Shown: positions 13,371 to 19,502 of the stretch, piece after piece
How the letters are laid out: each line of letters opens with the position of its first letter
Position numbering within the stretch: the stretch's first letter is position 1
NCBI GenBank assembly: GCA_003225315.1
Contig: QHZD01000043.1
Location: 1 to 48,984 of the forward strand
Reading direction: 5' to 3'
Origin: Acidobacteriota bacterium
GTDB taxonomy: Bacteria; Acidobacteriota; Terriglobia; Acidiferrales; UBA7541
Length of the DNA: 48,984 bases
Translations under genes and position numbers: made by a program
The notes under the pieces: generated by a model
What the model was told of the DNA's origin: nothing
What the model saw: the letters and a program-made list of their open reading frames with translations, nothing else
Database searches by the model: none

Positions 13371-15794
13371 CTACAGTGAGGCTTTTCGCAGGCGAAGGGC
13401 ATTGGCGATGACGGACACGGAGCTGAAGCTCATCGCCGCGCTGGCAATCATCGGGCTCAGCAGCCAACCGAAAAAAGGAAAGAAAACGCCCGCTGCGACG
13501 GGAATTCCAATCACGTTGTAGAGAAAAGCGAAGGCTAGGTTTTGTTTGATGTTGCGAATCGTGGCGCGGCTCAGTTTGCGCGCGCGGACGATGCCGCGAA
13601 GATCGCCTTTCACCAAAGTGATGCCCGCGTTTTCAATTGCCACGTCCGTACCGGTGCCCATGGCGATTCCGACGTCCGCTGCCGCGAGCGCCGGAGCGTC
13701 GTTAATTCCATCGCCTGCCATCGCAACGATGTGGCCCCGCTCGCGCAGCCTTTTCACGATTTCACTTTTTTGCTGCGGCTGAACTTCGGCTTCGACTTCT
13801 TCGATTTGTAATTCGCGGGCGACTTGCATCGCCGTTTCACGGCGGTCTCCGGTGAGCATAACGATGCGGACACCATCGTCATGCAGCGCGCGAATCGCCT
13901 CTGGCGTAGATGCTTTGATTGCGTCGCTCAGGAAGAGCACACCGGCGAATCTTCCCTCAACGGCAACGAGAATTGGAGTAACCGCGGAAGACTTCGTTGC
14001 CTGGGCTTCCAGATCTTGAAGATTTGGCAAGTCAATCTGCCGCTCGCGCAGAAACGCGGCCGTCCCGGCGAGGATCTTCTTTCCGAGAACTTGGCCTTCC
14101 CCGCCGGAGCCCGGGACTGCGCGGAATTCTTTCGGCGAAGTCAGCGGAAGCTTTTTTTCTTGAGCTGCACGCACGATCGCGCGCGCCAAAGGATGCTCGC
14201 TGGGCTGTTCGACGCTTGCCGTTAGCGAAAGGAGTTCGTCTTTCGATAAGCCGGCAGCGTCGAACACTTGGATGCTGGAGACCGTGGGCTTGCCTTCCGT
14301 GAGCGTGCCGGTCTTATCCACGACCAGCGTGTCGACTTTGGCGAGCGTTTCAAGAGCTTCAGCGTTGCGTACCAGCACACCCGCATGCGCGCCGCGGCCA
14401 ACGGCAACCATAATGGACATCGGGGTCGCAAGGCCAAGCGCGCATGGGCATGCGATGATGAGCACGGACACAGCCGCCACCAGCGCGTGCGCAAAACGCG
14501 GCTCTGGGCCGAACAAGATCCAGCCTGCAAAAGAGAGGATTGCAACGGCGATCACCGCCGGGACAAAATAAGCCGCGACGCGGTCGGCAAGTCGCTGCAA
14601 CGGCGCGCGGCTGCGCTGGGCTTCGCTGACGAGTTTCACAATTTGCGCCAGCATCGTTTCGCTGCCGACGCGCTCCGCTTCCATGATGAAACTGCCGCTG
14701 GTGTTCAGCGTTCCACCGGTGACTTTATCGCCAGCGCCTTTTTCGGCTGGCATGGGTTCGCCAGTCACCATGGATTCATCGATGGCGCTCGCGCCTTCGA
14801 GAATGGCGCCATCCACGGGGATGCGCTCGCCCGGACGTACACGAAGTTTGTCGCCGCGTTTCACTTGATCGAGCGGAACGTCAGTTTCCGAGCCATCCGC
14901 CGCAAGCAAGTGAGCTTGCTGCGGCGCGAGATTCAACAGCGCGCGAATGGCTCCGCTGGTGCGCTGCCTGGCGCGCAATTCCAGTACTTGCCCGAGGAGA
15001 ACGAGAGTGATGATCACCGCCGCCGCTTCGAAATAAACCGGCGAGGCGCCATCCATTCCGCGGAAAGAGGCCGGAAACACTCGGGGGAAAAAAGTAGCGA
15101 TAACGCTTTCGAGGTACGCGGCGCCGGTGCCCAGCCCGATTAGCGTAAACATGTTCGGGCTGCGATTGACGAGCGAGGACCAAAAACGCTCGAAGAATGG
15201 CCATCCACCCCAAAGAACCGCCGGCGTGGCAAGAAAAAACTCGACTCCATTTCGAACGCTGGGCGTCAGATGGACGCCGACCAAGTCCCCCAGCATGGAA
15301 AGGAGCAGCAGCGGAAGAGACAGCACCGCGCTGATCCAGAAACGCAGCAGCATGGACTCGTACTCGGGGTCGGCTTCCACCTCCGCGAAAACGTCCATCG
15401 GTTCGAGGGCCATGCCGCAAATGGGGCAGCTCCCTGGACCTACCTGAATGATCTGCGGATGCATCGGACAGGTGTAACGAATCTTTTTTTCGTCAGTTGT
15501 CACGCGGGACGCGGCCGCCTCTGGGCGATGCGCCGCCCCGTGTTCCGCCGACGCGGAACCGTGCTGCATTCCTGCAACAGCGGGAGCAGCGAGAAACTTC
15601 TCCGGGTCGCGCGAAAACCGTTCGGCACAACCCTTCGAGCAGAAGTAATACCTATTTCCAGCATGCTCGATTTTGGCGGCGGCTTTTTCCGGAGTAACCG
15701 TCATTCCGCAGACGGGATCCTTCACTTTTGGCGGTGTGTTTAGGACAGCCAGTTCTGGAATCGGAGGCTTGGGCGCAGGCGATGAATCGGACAT
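13371..15794 (-). CDS. copper-type heavy-metal P1B-ATPase with YHS and HMBD metal domains
   Basis: An 807-residue CopA/SilP-like metal-exporting ATPase. In place of N-terminal CxxC HMA domains it carries a YHS domain (about 25-68; [14 protein letters not shown]) and a heavy-metal-binding domain (about 108-135; YTCPMHP, CPICGM). The core has the metal-binding helix [10 protein letters not shown] (about 450), the phosphorylation site [11 protein letters not shown] (about 491), an HP locus (EHPLARAI) and the hinge [10 protein letters not shown] (about 698). CPC points to Cu(I) or Ag(I). It exports metal from the cytoplasm. Divergent from a small ferredoxin-fold protein. Confidence 0.93.
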
Positions 15795-15867
15795 ATCACC
15801 ATGTTAGATGAATTCCGGTTACCTGCGGATATGCCTCGAATTCCGCGGCGGCTGGTATAATGCCGCC

Positions 15868-16089
15868 ATGACCCTCGTCGAAGTTACCTACGAATTGCAA
15901 TCACCGCTGACGGAACAACAATTGCGGCATCTGGGCGAATTCGCGAACACGTACGGCTTGCGTCGGTTCCGCATCGACGAATCGAAGAAGCAGTTGTCGT
16001 TCGAGTATGACGCCTCCCGCCTGCGCGAAACGCAGGTGGCCCATGCGCTTGGCCAGGCACGCATCGCCGTCGCCCGCAGAGTGAATTAG
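15868..16089 (+). CDS. small HMA-like ferredoxin-fold protein lacking the CxxC motif
   Basis: A 73-residue protein whose strand-helix-strand-strand-helix-strand pattern resembles the HMA/CopZ metallochaperone fold: VEVTYELQSPLTEQQLRHL, then RRFRIDES, QLSFEYDASRL and a final helix. It has no cysteine at all, so the classical copper site (MxCxxC) is absent. I chose ATG 15868 because the fold starts there; an in-frame ATG at 15808 would add 20 unlikely residues. Divergence from the copper P-ATPase suggests a link to metal homeostasis, for instance as a structural partner or regulator. This is inference only. Confidence 0.65.
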   Translation: MTLVEVTYELQSPLTEQQLRHLGEFANTYGLRRFRIDESKKQLSFEYDASRLRETQVAHALGQARIAVARRVN

Positions 16090-16227
16090 TTTAAGGTTTG
16101 AGTGGTTAGATCGAATCAAATCTAAGAGCGGCTGTGAGTGCGGGCCAATTTCGCCTTGCAGGAAACTACTCTCTTGGCTTCCCAGCAGATTAACTAATGG
16201 TTCGGAAATTTCTGTCCGGCCTGCGGA

Positions 16228-16264
16228 AAAAAAGAGGGGCCCCCGCTTGGGATCGGGGGCCCCT
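16228..16264 (-). terminator. intrinsic terminator of the candidate ncRNA
   Basis: A perfect 11-bp stem (16264-16254 with 16245-16235, AGGGGCCCCCG) with an 8-nt loop is followed on the minus strand by CTTTTTTT. No coding gene on the minus strand ends here, so its presence supports a separate minus-strand transcript. Confidence 0.85.
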
Positions 16265-16426
16265 GAAGGCGCGTTTCAATTGCTGGCGTCGTTTTCACAC
16301 CAGCGCGTGGGGTCATCCATCCTAGCTTCCCTCTCAGAGGCAGGTGGGAACGATTTGCAAAAAGTGACAAGCAAGCCCCTTCCCCCTCGCTTGTCTCTCC
16401 TCACATTTCGTCATTTGAAACGCGCC
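16235..16426 (-). ncRNA. candidate structured non-coding RNA with its own terminator
   Basis: On the minus strand a 12-bp perfect stem (GGCGCGTTTCAA, 16426-16415, with 16279-16268) closes a domain of about 159 nt. Inside lie a 10-bp hairpin with one G-U pair (16395-16386 with 16375-16366, loop GGGGAAGGGG) and an 8-bp hairpin (16304-16297 with 16290-16282, A-rich loop). A further CCTC-TGA-GAGG hairpin lies between them. The domain is followed 3 nt later by an intrinsic terminator. No convincing protein is encoded here on either strand. The branched shape does not look like 6S RNA, tmRNA, SRP RNA or RNase P. Acidobacteria-restricted RNA motifs (Acido-1, Acido-Lenti-1) are possible matches that I cannot test. 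Confidence 0.6.
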
Positions 16427-16697
16427 CGCAGACCCGTTAATGCACGGCTTCGGCCAACGTGACGGACGAACGACTGTCACATAAATACTTGATTATGCTT
16501 AGGTTAGCTGTGTGGAGCGCCTGTGCGCACGCGCCAAATCCGCACTGGGGTTTCAATTCGGAACTCCCTTCACTCCAAAATCGGAAGCCCTTCTGTTCAT
16601 CTCATCTGAATGCGGCTTTGCCACTTGGTTCTAGAACCCAGGTAACAAGATTTTCGAACTTCGAGGACTATCGGTTTTCTTCTGGCCTCTCCACAAA

Positions 16698-17036
16698 ATG
16701 ACCTCCATGTGCGGGCTCTTTCGTAAAACCATCTCGCGTCGGATTCTCTCGAGGACATCTCACTTGGGAGCCGTTTTCCTGGCTTGTTCGCTCACGCTGC
16801 TCGCGGACACGCCGGGATTGCTCCGGAAGGTTCCCGCGGGCGGCTGCTTTTGCCGTTGCGAAGAATCGCATCAACGACGAGGCTGCGTAAAGCTGTGCGA
16901 TTCAAAGCGATTTGCTTCCCGCTGGTGGGCCATTAAGTGCGCGAAACCCCGCATGCATAGGCCGCCCAACAACTCGAATGCCGGCCCACGGTTCCCGCAT
17001 CCTGGCCGCGTTGAGCACGCACAGCTCCATCGGTAG
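16698..17036 (+). CDS. small cysteine-rich secreted protein, unknown function
   Basis: A 112-residue frame. A basic N terminus (RRILSRTSH) is followed by a hydrophobic stretch (LGAVFLACSLTLLA, about 23-36) like a signal peptide. The mature part has six cysteines in the pattern CFCRC, GCVKLC and KC, then SRWWAIKCAKP and a Pro/Asn-rich end (NAGPRFPHPGR). The compact Cys spacing and WWA-KCAKP block look selected rather than random; I have an impression of similar proteins in Acidobacteriota but cannot confirm it. Starts at 16698 and 16707 are both possible, and neither has a clear ribosome binding site. It could bind metal or be disulfide-bonded. Confidence 0.55.
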   Translation: MTSMCGLFRKTISRRILSRTSHLGAVFLACSLTLLADTPGLLRKVPAGGCFCRCEESHQRRGCVKLCDSKRFASRWWAIKCAKPRMHRPPNNSNAGPRFPHPGRVEHAQLHR

Positions 17037-17113
17037 TTCGGTGTTTTAGTTCGCAGTTTCAACTGAACGTGCTCCGATTTGAACTTAGTGCTACGGTGTT
17101 CTATCGCGGAATT

Positions 17114-18301
17114 CTAGCGAGCTTCGGCTTCGACAGTCGCCCGCGCCGCGTGTTCGGTGGTTGAATTCGATTCGCCGAGAAGCTTTGCCAGAATTTCTGG
17201 GATTTCGAAGACAGCGCGGTTGTTCTGAGCGGCTACGCTTTTTCGGAATTTGGCGAGCGTTGCGGGATCGAGCATGCGCTTTACGCCTTCCACCACATTC
17301 CCGAAACTTTTCAATACAATGCCGACGCCCTTTTCCTTCACCCACTCGGCGTTGTAACGCTCCTGCGGAAGCGTCCAGGCGTTGCATTCGATCAATACAG
17401 GGAGCTTGCGGACCATGGCTTCCGCAATGCTGCCGGGGCCCGGTTTGCCGATCAAAAAATCCGCTGCACGCATCAGCCGATGCACTTCCTTCGTGAAGCC
17501 AACGATGTGCACCGGCATTTTCCATGGCCGAGCGCGTAGTTTCGCCGCCAATTCTTCGTTCCGTCCGCAAATGAGAATCAATTGCAGCGTCAAACTGGCG
17601 GCTTCCAGTTTTTCGGTGATGTCGTACATCACTTTGGAACCGTGGCCGCCGAAGAGCACAATGGCCGTCGGCACATCTTCCCGCAGCCCCATTTCCCGGC
17701 GAAGTGCAATTGGATCGGAATTGTCTTCGACGTAAAAATCAGGGCGCAAAATCATTCCCGAGGTCAGAAAAACGTGAGCATCATCATGGCCTATCGCTCG
17801 TGCTTGTTCGGCAGCTTTTTCCGTGCCGGCGATCACGTATTGCTCCTTGACCGGCTCGATCCAGAATCGCGGCGGAAAATCCGCCAGGTCGGTGATGATA
17901 GTGACAAACGGACGGCTGGGATAAACCCTGTTCCAGCTTTCGCAAATTTGCCGATTGAAATGGGGAATTACGGAAATGAGCAGTTCCGCAGGTTTTTCAC
18001 GCCAGAATCGTTCGAGCAGATTCACTAGCGGTCCGTGAAATAGCCGGATCGTTGCTTGCAGAATGCGAAGGAGATATGTACTGCCTAGAGTCCAGCCATT
18101 TTGCAACAGGATGTTGTACTGCTGCTGGATGCGAATGCCGGTGAGTTTGCGCAGAACGTCCAGGCGGTCCGTCAGGTCCTGGAACTGGATGAGTTCGACC
18201 TGCCAGTCGCGTTGCTGTTGGGAAATTACGGTCTGTAAGGCTACTGCAGCGTTGCGATGCCCTCCCCCGCCATCGTGGAAGACGACGTGAATTTTCCTCA
18301 T
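17114..18301 (-). CDS. MGDG-synthase/UgtP-like glycosyltransferase (GT28 type)
   Basis: A 395-residue GT-B glycosyltransferase. The N-terminal half begins KIHVVFHDGGGGHRNAA, the acceptor-side signature of monogalactosyldiacylglycerol synthases and UgtP, and has an IPHFNRQICESW segment. The C-terminal half has VLFGGHGSK, GFTKEVHRLMRAADFLIGKPGPGSIAEAM and ECNAWTLPQERYNAEW, the UDP-sugar site. It probably glycosylates diacylglycerol or a related lipid at the inner leaflet. I place the start at ATG 18301, where the family homology begins; a longer frame reaches 18409. No Shine-Dalgarno is seen. Divergent from the PHP gene. Confidence 0.85.
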   Translation of the reverse strand: MRKIHVVFHDGGGGHRNAAVALQTVISQQQRDWQVELIQFQDLTDRLDVLRKLTGIRIQQQYNILLQNGWTLGSTYLLRILQATIRLFHGPLVNLLERFWREKPAELLISVIPHFNRQICESWNRVYPSRPFVTIITDLADFPPRFWIEPVKEQYVIAGTEKAAEQARAIGHDDAHVFLTSGMILRPDFYVEDNSDPIALRREMGLREDVPTAIVLFGGHGSKVMYDITEKLEAASLTLQLILICGRNEELAAKLRARPWKMPVHIVGFTKEVHRLMRAADFLIGKPGPGSIAEAMVRKLPVLIECNAWTLPQERYNAEWVKEKGVGIVLKSFGNVVEGVKRMLDPATLAKFRKSVAAQNNRAVFEIPEILAKLLGESNSTTEHAARATVEAEAR

Positions 18302-18464
18302 TGGGAGGATTGTGCCACAAAGCGACGGGTATTGGAGAGAGCACGCTCCATGCCATGTGAATAACCGAGTAACTGATTTGCGTTCAATAAGCTCCGTGGA
18401 CACATTCACGCAGATTTCGCAACCTCTTTACAGGCTGTTCATATCGAGGGAAGAAAATTACAAC

Positions 18465-19502
18465 ATGCGCTGCGACCTTCATGTTCACTCGATCGCATCC
18501 GGAATGTTCAACGCACCCGGGCTGAATCGCATTTGCCGGGAATGTTACACCGAACCGGCGGCCGTGTATGAACGGCTGAAGCGGAAGGGCATGTCCCTCG
18601 TCACCCTAACCGACCATGACTCGATCGACGGAGCGGAGTCCTTACGGCAGTACGCCGACTTTTTCCTCAGCGAAGAAGTGACCGTGCGAATGCCCAGCGG
18701 CACCGAGATGCACATGGGAGTTTATGGCATCACGGAACGCGATCATGCTGAAATTCAGCGCCGAAGAAACGATTTTATTGCGCTATTGATGTACCTCACC
18801 GAGCGTAAGCTTTTCTTCAGTGCCAACCATGTATTCTCTGGATTAACGGGCCGCCGCGAAGCAGAAGATTTTCATTGGTTTGAATCCTATGTGCCGGCGT
18901 TTGAAACGCGCAACGGGCAGATGTGGCCGCAGTCCAACGAGAGTTCCGCGCGGCTGGCGGCGCGGCTGGGAAAAATCGCGATTGCCGGCAGCGATTCGCA
19001 CACCATCGCCGGCGTCGGGCATACGTTCACGGAAGTGCGGGGCCTGGATTTGGTACGGCCTGGGACTGATGCTGCTCGCCTACGGAGGCCCGCAGCGTTT
19101 TGCGGCCATCGGGGCTGCCGGATCGCCAGCGGTCCTGGGAATTCTTGTATTCAAAGCGCTGAAGAGATTGAGCCAGCGGCCGAGGCCTTGCCACATCGAA
19201 CCGCACTGCTGGTCGAAGGTGCTGCCTCCGGACAAGTTTTCGTTTCCCTCGGGCCACACGATGACGGCGTTTTCGATCGCACTGGTGGTCAGCTACTTTT
19301 ATCCCTCACTCGAAGGCGTGCTCTTTTTCCTGGCGCTAAGCATTGCGGTGTCCCGCATCGTGCTGGGTATGCACTTTCTGAGCGATGTGCTGGCCGGCGT
19401 GGTCATGGGGGTTGCTTTGGGCTGCGCTTCGATTACGGCTTTCGCTTCTTTGGGACTCATCTAGCAGGCACACGTCTTTCTCGCCTAGCAGTTTCCTCTT
19501 GA
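18465..19502 (+). CDS. PHP-domain phosphoesterase-like protein, C terminus apparently replaced
   Basis: A PHP (polymerase and histidinol phosphatase) metal-dependent domain. DLHVHS (residues 4-9) and TLTDHDSI carry the metal-binding His and Asp, SANHVFSG the middle His, and GSDSHTIAG the C-terminal Asp and His. Homology-like sequence stops near VRGLDLV (about 19050). After that the same frame gives a low-complexity Arg/Gly-rich tail to 19502, which is shadow coding. The second reading frame from this point encodes a PAP2 phosphatase. The catalytic core looks whole, but the family's C-terminal region is missing. ATG 18465 starts the domain. Confidence 0.75.
   Translation: MRCDLHVHSIASGMFNAPGLNRICRECYTEPAAVYERLKRKGMSLVTLTDHDSIDGAESLRQYADFFLSEEVTVRMPSGTEMHMGVYGITERDHAEIQRRRNDFIALLMYLTERKLFFSANHVFSGLTGRREAEDFHWFESYVPAFETRNGQMWPQSNESSARLAARLGKIAIAGSDSHTIAGVGHTFTEVRGLDLVRPGTDAARLRRPAAFCGHRGCRIASGPGNSCIQSAEEIEPAAEALPHRTALLVEGAASGQVFVSLGPHDDGVFDRTGGQLLLSLTRRRALFPGAKHCGVPHRAGYALSERCAGRRGHGGCFGLRFDYGFRFFGTHLAGTRLSRLAVSS
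19042..19464 (+). pseudogene. PAP2-family membrane phosphatase, N terminus missing
   Basis: In the frame +1 relative to the PHP gene the sequence codes for the C-terminal part of a PAP2 lipid phosphatase. It has the three signature motifs KRLSQRPRP, FSFPSGHT (catalytic-site PSGH) and SRIVLGMHFLSDVLAG, plus four hydrophobic helices. About 40-60 N-terminal residues typical of the family are absent: the recognisable part begins at WYGLGLMLLAYGG, at the point where PHP similarity ends. An internal ATG (19069) could give a 131-residue product. The junction looks like a deletion that removed the end of the PHP gene and the start of this one, or an assembly error. Confidence 0.7.

Follow-up and report, generated by a model that had tools for sequence, protein, structure and literature searches.

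The window, a stretch of 48,984 nucleotides, carries on its minus strand at 16228-16430 what is almost certainly a genuine structured non-coding RNA. The RNA would be about 203 nt long, extending from a predicted start at 16430, placed by its distance from the -12 element of the promoter, to the T-run of its terminator, and every feature that the original prediction had assigned to this position is present. The closing stem P1, described there as a perfect 12-bp helix, consists of 12 Watson-Crick pairs plus one G-U pair, with the 5' strand (16415-16427) pairing to the 3' strand (16267-16279). Folding places three hairpins inside it, where two or three had been expected: P2 (16349-16412), a long hairpin whose strongly conserved G-rich loop reads exactly GGGGAAGGGG here; the core (16309-16347; CCACCUGCCUCUGAGAGGGAAGCUAGGAUGGAUGACCCC), made up of an irregular hairpin and the single-stranded AUGGAUGACCCC; and P4 (16282-16304). 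The predicted spacing to a strong terminator also holds, as the stem of the intrinsic terminator P5 (16228-16264; loop AUCCCAAG) begins 3 nt past the Watson-Crick part of P1 and runs for 11 bp (16264-16235) before CTTTTTTT. For the 165-nt domain, the predicted folding energy is -74.5 kcal/mol (z -5.87), a value reached by none of 200 dinucleotide shuffles. According to the list of open reading frames, the nearest plausible gene upstream on the same strand ends at 17114 (another frame has a shorter mechanical ORF, with its end at 17091), and the copA gene downstream starts at 15794, so no same-strand coding gene obviously uses the terminator, as had been claimed.

Covariance models of Rfam 15, the check proposed with the original prediction, gave no family at its gathering score anywhere in the window. 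A relaxed search on the RNA returned sub-threshold matches only, all of them taking in the terminator hairpin; the best match overlapping the RNA, BjrC68, reached 21.4 bits against a threshold of 39 and lies mainly on the terminator. Six further loci, four of them short forms of the element, likewise yielded sub-threshold matches only. Acido-1 (RF01686) and Acido-Lenti-1 (RF01687), structured acidobacterial RNAs listed as non-cis in PMC2864571, differ from this RNA in that neither model matches it. ARAGORN finds no tmRNA or tRNA gene in the window, in agreement with the earlier exclusion of tmRNA. Among the best matches in the open-access literature, no such RNA is described for the Candidatus Acidiferrum lineage, and this folded RNA of about 200 nt is apparently undescribed.

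Homologous copies were compared in an alignment (A1) of 53 of the 77 cuttable stretches; short forms, near duplicates and copies whose core is broken were excluded, so the core columns look more uniform than they are in the whole set. In this MAFFT alignment, 91.6% of the modelled cells can pair, compared with 78.4% in shuffles, and cells with a double change number 281, whereas shuffles give 94.5 and slid controls no more than 87. Double changes occur in 23 of the 36 pairs (19.1 in shuffles; reached by 2 of 500), including 10/10 modelled pairs of P1 and 13/15 of P2. A lack of compensatory changes had been named as the result that would refute the prediction; such changes are present and, together with the Rfam outcome, support the reading as a stand-alone structured RNA. 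P4, counted as at least 5 bp within the 40 nt 3' of the core, occurs in 69/69 loci where the segment could be cut (6/75 were uncuttable), a count without a shuffle control. The core hairpin shows no double changes because the core hardly varies: its 39 nt are identical in 51 of the 75 long-form loci, with at most one mismatch in 60 and at most three in 67, while the other eight differ by at least seven letters in an ungapped comparison, several of them through one-base indels by eye. Conservation of the core extends to paired and unpaired bases alike. For a pseudoknot between the G-rich loop of P2 and ACCCC, both sides hardly vary, and an ACCCC-like stretch is kept in most short forms, which have no P2. 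A kissing contact between the P2 loop and the CCCAAG terminator loop is not supported, as L068-L070 (g6) keep the G-rich loop and have no CCC in the terminator loop.

The terminator is conserved in more than its stem. A strict stem search located the hairpin in 63 of the 75 loci, and 54 of these 63 carry CCCA[AG] at the loop, whereas none of the 279 other hairpins with a stem of 8 or more in these flanks has CCCAA at its loop; at least five T follow within 14 bases of the stem in 59 loci. Since its loop is conserved, the terminator seems to be part of the working RNA. Comparison of the copies shows a conserved RNA whose predicted fold combines three outer helices with a core that scarcely varies and a terminator whose loop is conserved.

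Using the minus-strand segment 16540-16200 as query, blastn matched 75 of 89 genomes from one family of Acidobacteriota, the Candidatus Acidiferrum lineage, in 13/13 genera, and 46 of the 50 genomes of good quality. The 80 matched loci examined comprise 75 long-form copies in 73 of the 89 genomes, four short forms (L076, L078, L079 and L081) and one decayed-looking copy (L077 in G006). A covariance model (R1) matched 75 of 95 genomes of the order, all within the family and including a short form in G035 and the decayed-looking copy in G006, but 0/6 genomes of two sister families; under strict filters, it matched the source genome alone in a 396-genome sample of the phylum. A sequence-only model of the core (R2) matched 78 of the 89 family genomes at E 0.1 or better, and in a 399-genome sample of the class its matches outside the family all had E-values of 0.003 or worse. 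Inspection covered 12 of the weak R2 matches and identified five short forms, one partial long form and six matches judged by eye to be due to chance, mostly in coding sequence and two of them (G504 and G657) outside the family. The exact core pattern occurs in 54 stretches of a collection of 84,980 species, all 54 at known loci of the family; among the titles are Candidatus Acidiferrum typicum and Candidatus Acidiferrales, and two stretches titled Bacillota and Betaproteobacteria match loci of family genomes. Viral contigs contain 0 exact matches. The 14 family genomes without a blastn match include G007, G008 and G019, which belong to the genus of the window and are 95-97% complete, so the RNA seems to be absent from some members. 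As judged from these searches, the predicted RNA is common to most sequenced members of the family and is not convincingly found outside it in the samples searched. Two genomes carry two long-form copies each: those of G038 (L062 and L066) are each close to a contig end and may represent a single place that was assembled twice, and those of G072 (L056 and L067) differ. In G044, a partial long form (L144, 445-486 and on) lacks the 5' half; of the core it retains the 3' half, together with P4 and a hairpin resembling a terminator.

Directly upstream of the RNA lies TTGGCC-N7-TGCAT, a candidate sigma-54-type promoter on the minus strand at 16440-16457 (TTGGCCGAAGCCGTGCAT), with GG at 16455-16454 and GC at 16443-16442. 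The spacing GG-N10-GC is that of the consensus sigma-54 -24/-12 element. In counts made on the 75 long-form loci minus those too short, as also for the palindromes, terminator and core, GG-N10-GC falls in the expected 40-nt window in 70/72 loci, compared with 1752 of 8948 control windows (19.6%), and the stricter TGG-N10-GC in 58/72, compared with 515 of 6470 control windows of 55 nt (8.0%). Transcription starting 12 nt from the C at -12 would begin at 16430, which coincides with the edge of the originally predicted span and lies 3 nt before P1. The genome encodes RpoN (E 9.4e-57), and thus a suitably placed, conserved -24/-12 element is accompanied by the sigma factor itself, the two marks expected of a sigma-54-dependent regulatory RNA; a promoter scan detected no sigma-70 site on either strand of 15700-17200. 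The RNA is very probably transcribed under sigma-54 control, as far as promoter sequence can indicate. In addition, sites resembling TCCCGANTCGGGA are enriched upstream, in many loci some 130 nt ahead of the -24 region. With at most three mismatches, this palindrome is present upstream in 43/72 loci, against about 8% of shuffles and 2/69 downstream controls; the palindrome was chosen after viewing the sequences, so the enrichment is partly circular, and the clustered position of the sites is the more independent part of this evidence. In the window, three activator-like palindromic sites lie within 16532-16586 on the minus strand (16574-16586, 16552-16564 and 16532-16543), the second and third picked by eye.

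On the 3' side of the RNA lies a copper P-type ATPase gene, copA (13371-15794; TIGR01511, 605.9 bits against a cut-off of 397), separated from it by a small convergent gene that matches no family above cut-off and has relatives near 45 of the 75 loci (flanks mostly 1-1.5 kb). Neighbourhoods were sampled at 19 representative loci (18 plus the window) from 12 genera. A copA homologue lies within the stretch at 13 of the 19, in nine of the 12 genera and always on the 3' side, an arrangement that would suit a cis-acting leader or attenuator of copA located behind the terminator. However, copA runs along the RNA at six of these loci and against it at seven, which indicates that the RNA is no copA leader; an opposite-strand gene intervenes in the window, and the representatives of g4, g6 and g10 have no copA in the stretch examined. 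The leader reading is largely refuted by the two orientations and is very improbable. Clustering also placed a CsoR-like gene near 15 of the 75 loci (one member tested, PF02583) and a divergent thioredoxin-like gene with a Cys-rich tail at 9 of the 19 (one member tested). Copper genes thus lie nearby in most genera sampled, which suggests a copper or redox setting for the RNA; the neighbourhood does not prove a link to copper, because gene order may simply be inherited. On the plus strand of the window, a divergent ORF at 16698-17036 begins, by eye, like a signal peptide and contains a Cys-rich stretch (GGCFCRCEESHQRRGCVKLC); it has no Pfam or NCBIfam match, and relatives occur on the same side in 24 of the 75 loci.

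The core, more or less changed, also occurs at nine other places in eight genomes of the family, in elements of about 70 nt. In these short forms the same core sits inside other stems and is mostly closed directly by a short stem; P1 was not aligned in their structural alignments (A3 and A4). Four have R2 E-values of 1.7e-11 or better and five lie between 4.8e-5 and 1.1e-3. Compared with shuffles, and as cut, four fold clearly better (z -2.2 to -2.5), two slightly better (z -1.31 and -1.62) and three not clearly so (z +1.26, +0.51 and -0.34). Sigma-70-type promoters lie just upstream by eye. Two short forms, L081 and L143, look self-terminating by eye, the terminator of L143 having the same kind of loop as the long form. 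The sigma-54-type promoter, the invariant core with its short relatives, the terminator loop and the copper-gene neighbourhood are new with respect to the original prediction.

Several side features accompany the short forms. Five of the nine (L076, L078, L079, L143 and L145; equivalent to L154, L250, L249, L251 and L160) have a gene of a single XRE/HTH regulator family (SQGDIEKRTGLLRCYISRVENGHTVP) no more than about 1 kb away, in varying arrangements. The three genomes counted contain 5, 9 and 13 matches to this family, and the 2.5-3.7 kb examined around nine other members include no core-like site. The contexts of L078, L142 and L145 (L155, L158 and L160) each contain a protein of 522-551 aa with a similar start by eye (MILREIIPILIACSCLS and alike), which may point to a common island. 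In G002, L157, about 3.6-4.7 kb downstream of L081, contains a protein that resembles by eye a sigma-54 enhancer-binding activator.

Downstream genes vary in direction, the RNA has a terminator of its own at its end, and conservation of the core does not distinguish paired from unpaired bases; a trans-acting, protein-binding RNA is therefore favoured. In the mechanism we propose, sigma-54 RNA polymerase and an enhancer-binding activator would transcribe the RNA, which would thus be made only on a signal; transcription of this type is a well-supported prediction. The finished RNA would then act in trans by offering a protein its invariant core along with the G-rich P2 loop, and binding of the core may titrate or regulate this partner. 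The short elements with the same core could be other binding sites of the same partner; as they occur in only 8 of the 89 genomes, they cannot be its general targets. That the RNA is signal-induced and trans-acting, with a core that binds a protein, is a tentative reading to which we give slightly less than even confidence, and the invariance of the core could be explained just as well by a small-molecule aptamer or by pairing to a conserved RNA.

Pairing would make the RNA a base-pairing small RNA, whose G-rich P2 loop, AUGGAUGACCCC strand or CCCAAG loop binds several mRNAs. Strong conservation of all three single-stranded segments agrees with this reading, but the conserved stretch includes paired bases, and the usual seed of a small RNA is far shorter than the stretch conserved here. 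The Hfq-like match in the genome is also weak (24 bits against a cut-off of 27, in a 176-codon frame), and 15 tests of the three loop segments against the start regions of four neighbouring genes (copA, the small convergent gene, the Cys-rich ORF and a glycosyltransferase) gave no significant pairing (lowest P 0.05). Base pairing is possible yet unlikely. A broader proposal, rather less likely still, is that the core is a new RNA module for a protein or ligand, used in two ways within one lineage, as a titrating RNA induced through sigma-54 and also in short RNAs or leaders behind sigma-70-like promoters, several of them beside one family of XRE regulators, with all of these possibly tied to copper or redox stress.

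If the core were instead an aptamer for a small molecule or metal ion, the long form would be a free-standing sensor and the short forms leader riboswitches. A nearly invariant irregular core inside variable stems speaks for such a reading, and an ORF could begin 16-34 nt downstream of the short module in L076, L078 and L079. However, the long form has a terminator of its own at its end and no gene beyond it keeps a constant orientation, L081 and L143 appear to terminate themselves, and the ORFs behind the short forms are tiny or seem unrelated by eye, two of the three encoding tiny, hydrophobic-looking peptides; we consider an aptamer improbable. A small mRNA, in which AUG GAU GAC CCC of the core begins a short peptide preceded in most loci by the purine-rich GAGAGGGAAGC (by eye), is rejected as very implausible: third codon positions in the core are as invariant as the others, pairs outside it co-vary and the short form L143 breaks the frame; one-base alignment gaps are also common (a per-row count, so few events, with no frame test). 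Least probable of all is a CsrB/RsmZ-like sponge or 6S RNA: despite several GGA motifs, one inside a hairpin loop, the 97.64% complete genome has no CsrA/RsmA match (3/14 control genomes were positive), and despite the stand-alone nature and comparable length of 6S RNA, the fold here is branched rather than a single rod and has no RF00013 match, the only 6S-like match of the genome lying elsewhere and scoring 37.9 bits, below the gathering score of 46.4. That match (G000:C46:23957-24180, L238) is perhaps a diverged acidobacterial 6S RNA.

The favoured reading, a protein-binding RNA acting in trans, resembles known decoy systems. CrcZ and CrcY of Pseudomonas and Azotobacter are stand-alone RNAs that act as Hfq-Crc decoys, are transcribed by sigma-54 with an activator and, in the case of CrcZ, carry repeated A-rich motifs. 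The RNA described here shares the stand-alone form, the sigma-54-type promoter with putative activator sites and the proposed titration of a protein, but has one nearly invariant folded core, belongs to another phylum and occurs in a genome whose Hfq match is below threshold. GlmY and GlmZ of Enterobacteria follow a similar decoy logic with RapZ, and QseF activator sites are reported in the glmY promoter; however, their fold differs, and the RNA here has no Rfam match. The resemblance to CrcZ and GlmY is, on the proposed mechanism, a likeness of logic and not family membership. Acidobacteria are major soil bacteria, yet their annotated small RNAs are very few; a 2022 table lists four distinct ones (PMC9029176). 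The RNA predicted here is family-wide. Its testable promoter, covarying scaffold and almost unchanging core make the binding partner a concrete target, and the short relatives would allow a test of whether one RNA module serves in both free and leader RNAs. Elsewhere in the window, on the plus strand, a PHP-type ORF (18312-19502; PF13263) overlaps a PAP2 phosphatase ORF (18880-19464; PF01569) in a different frame, possibly reflecting a frameshift or overlapping genes.
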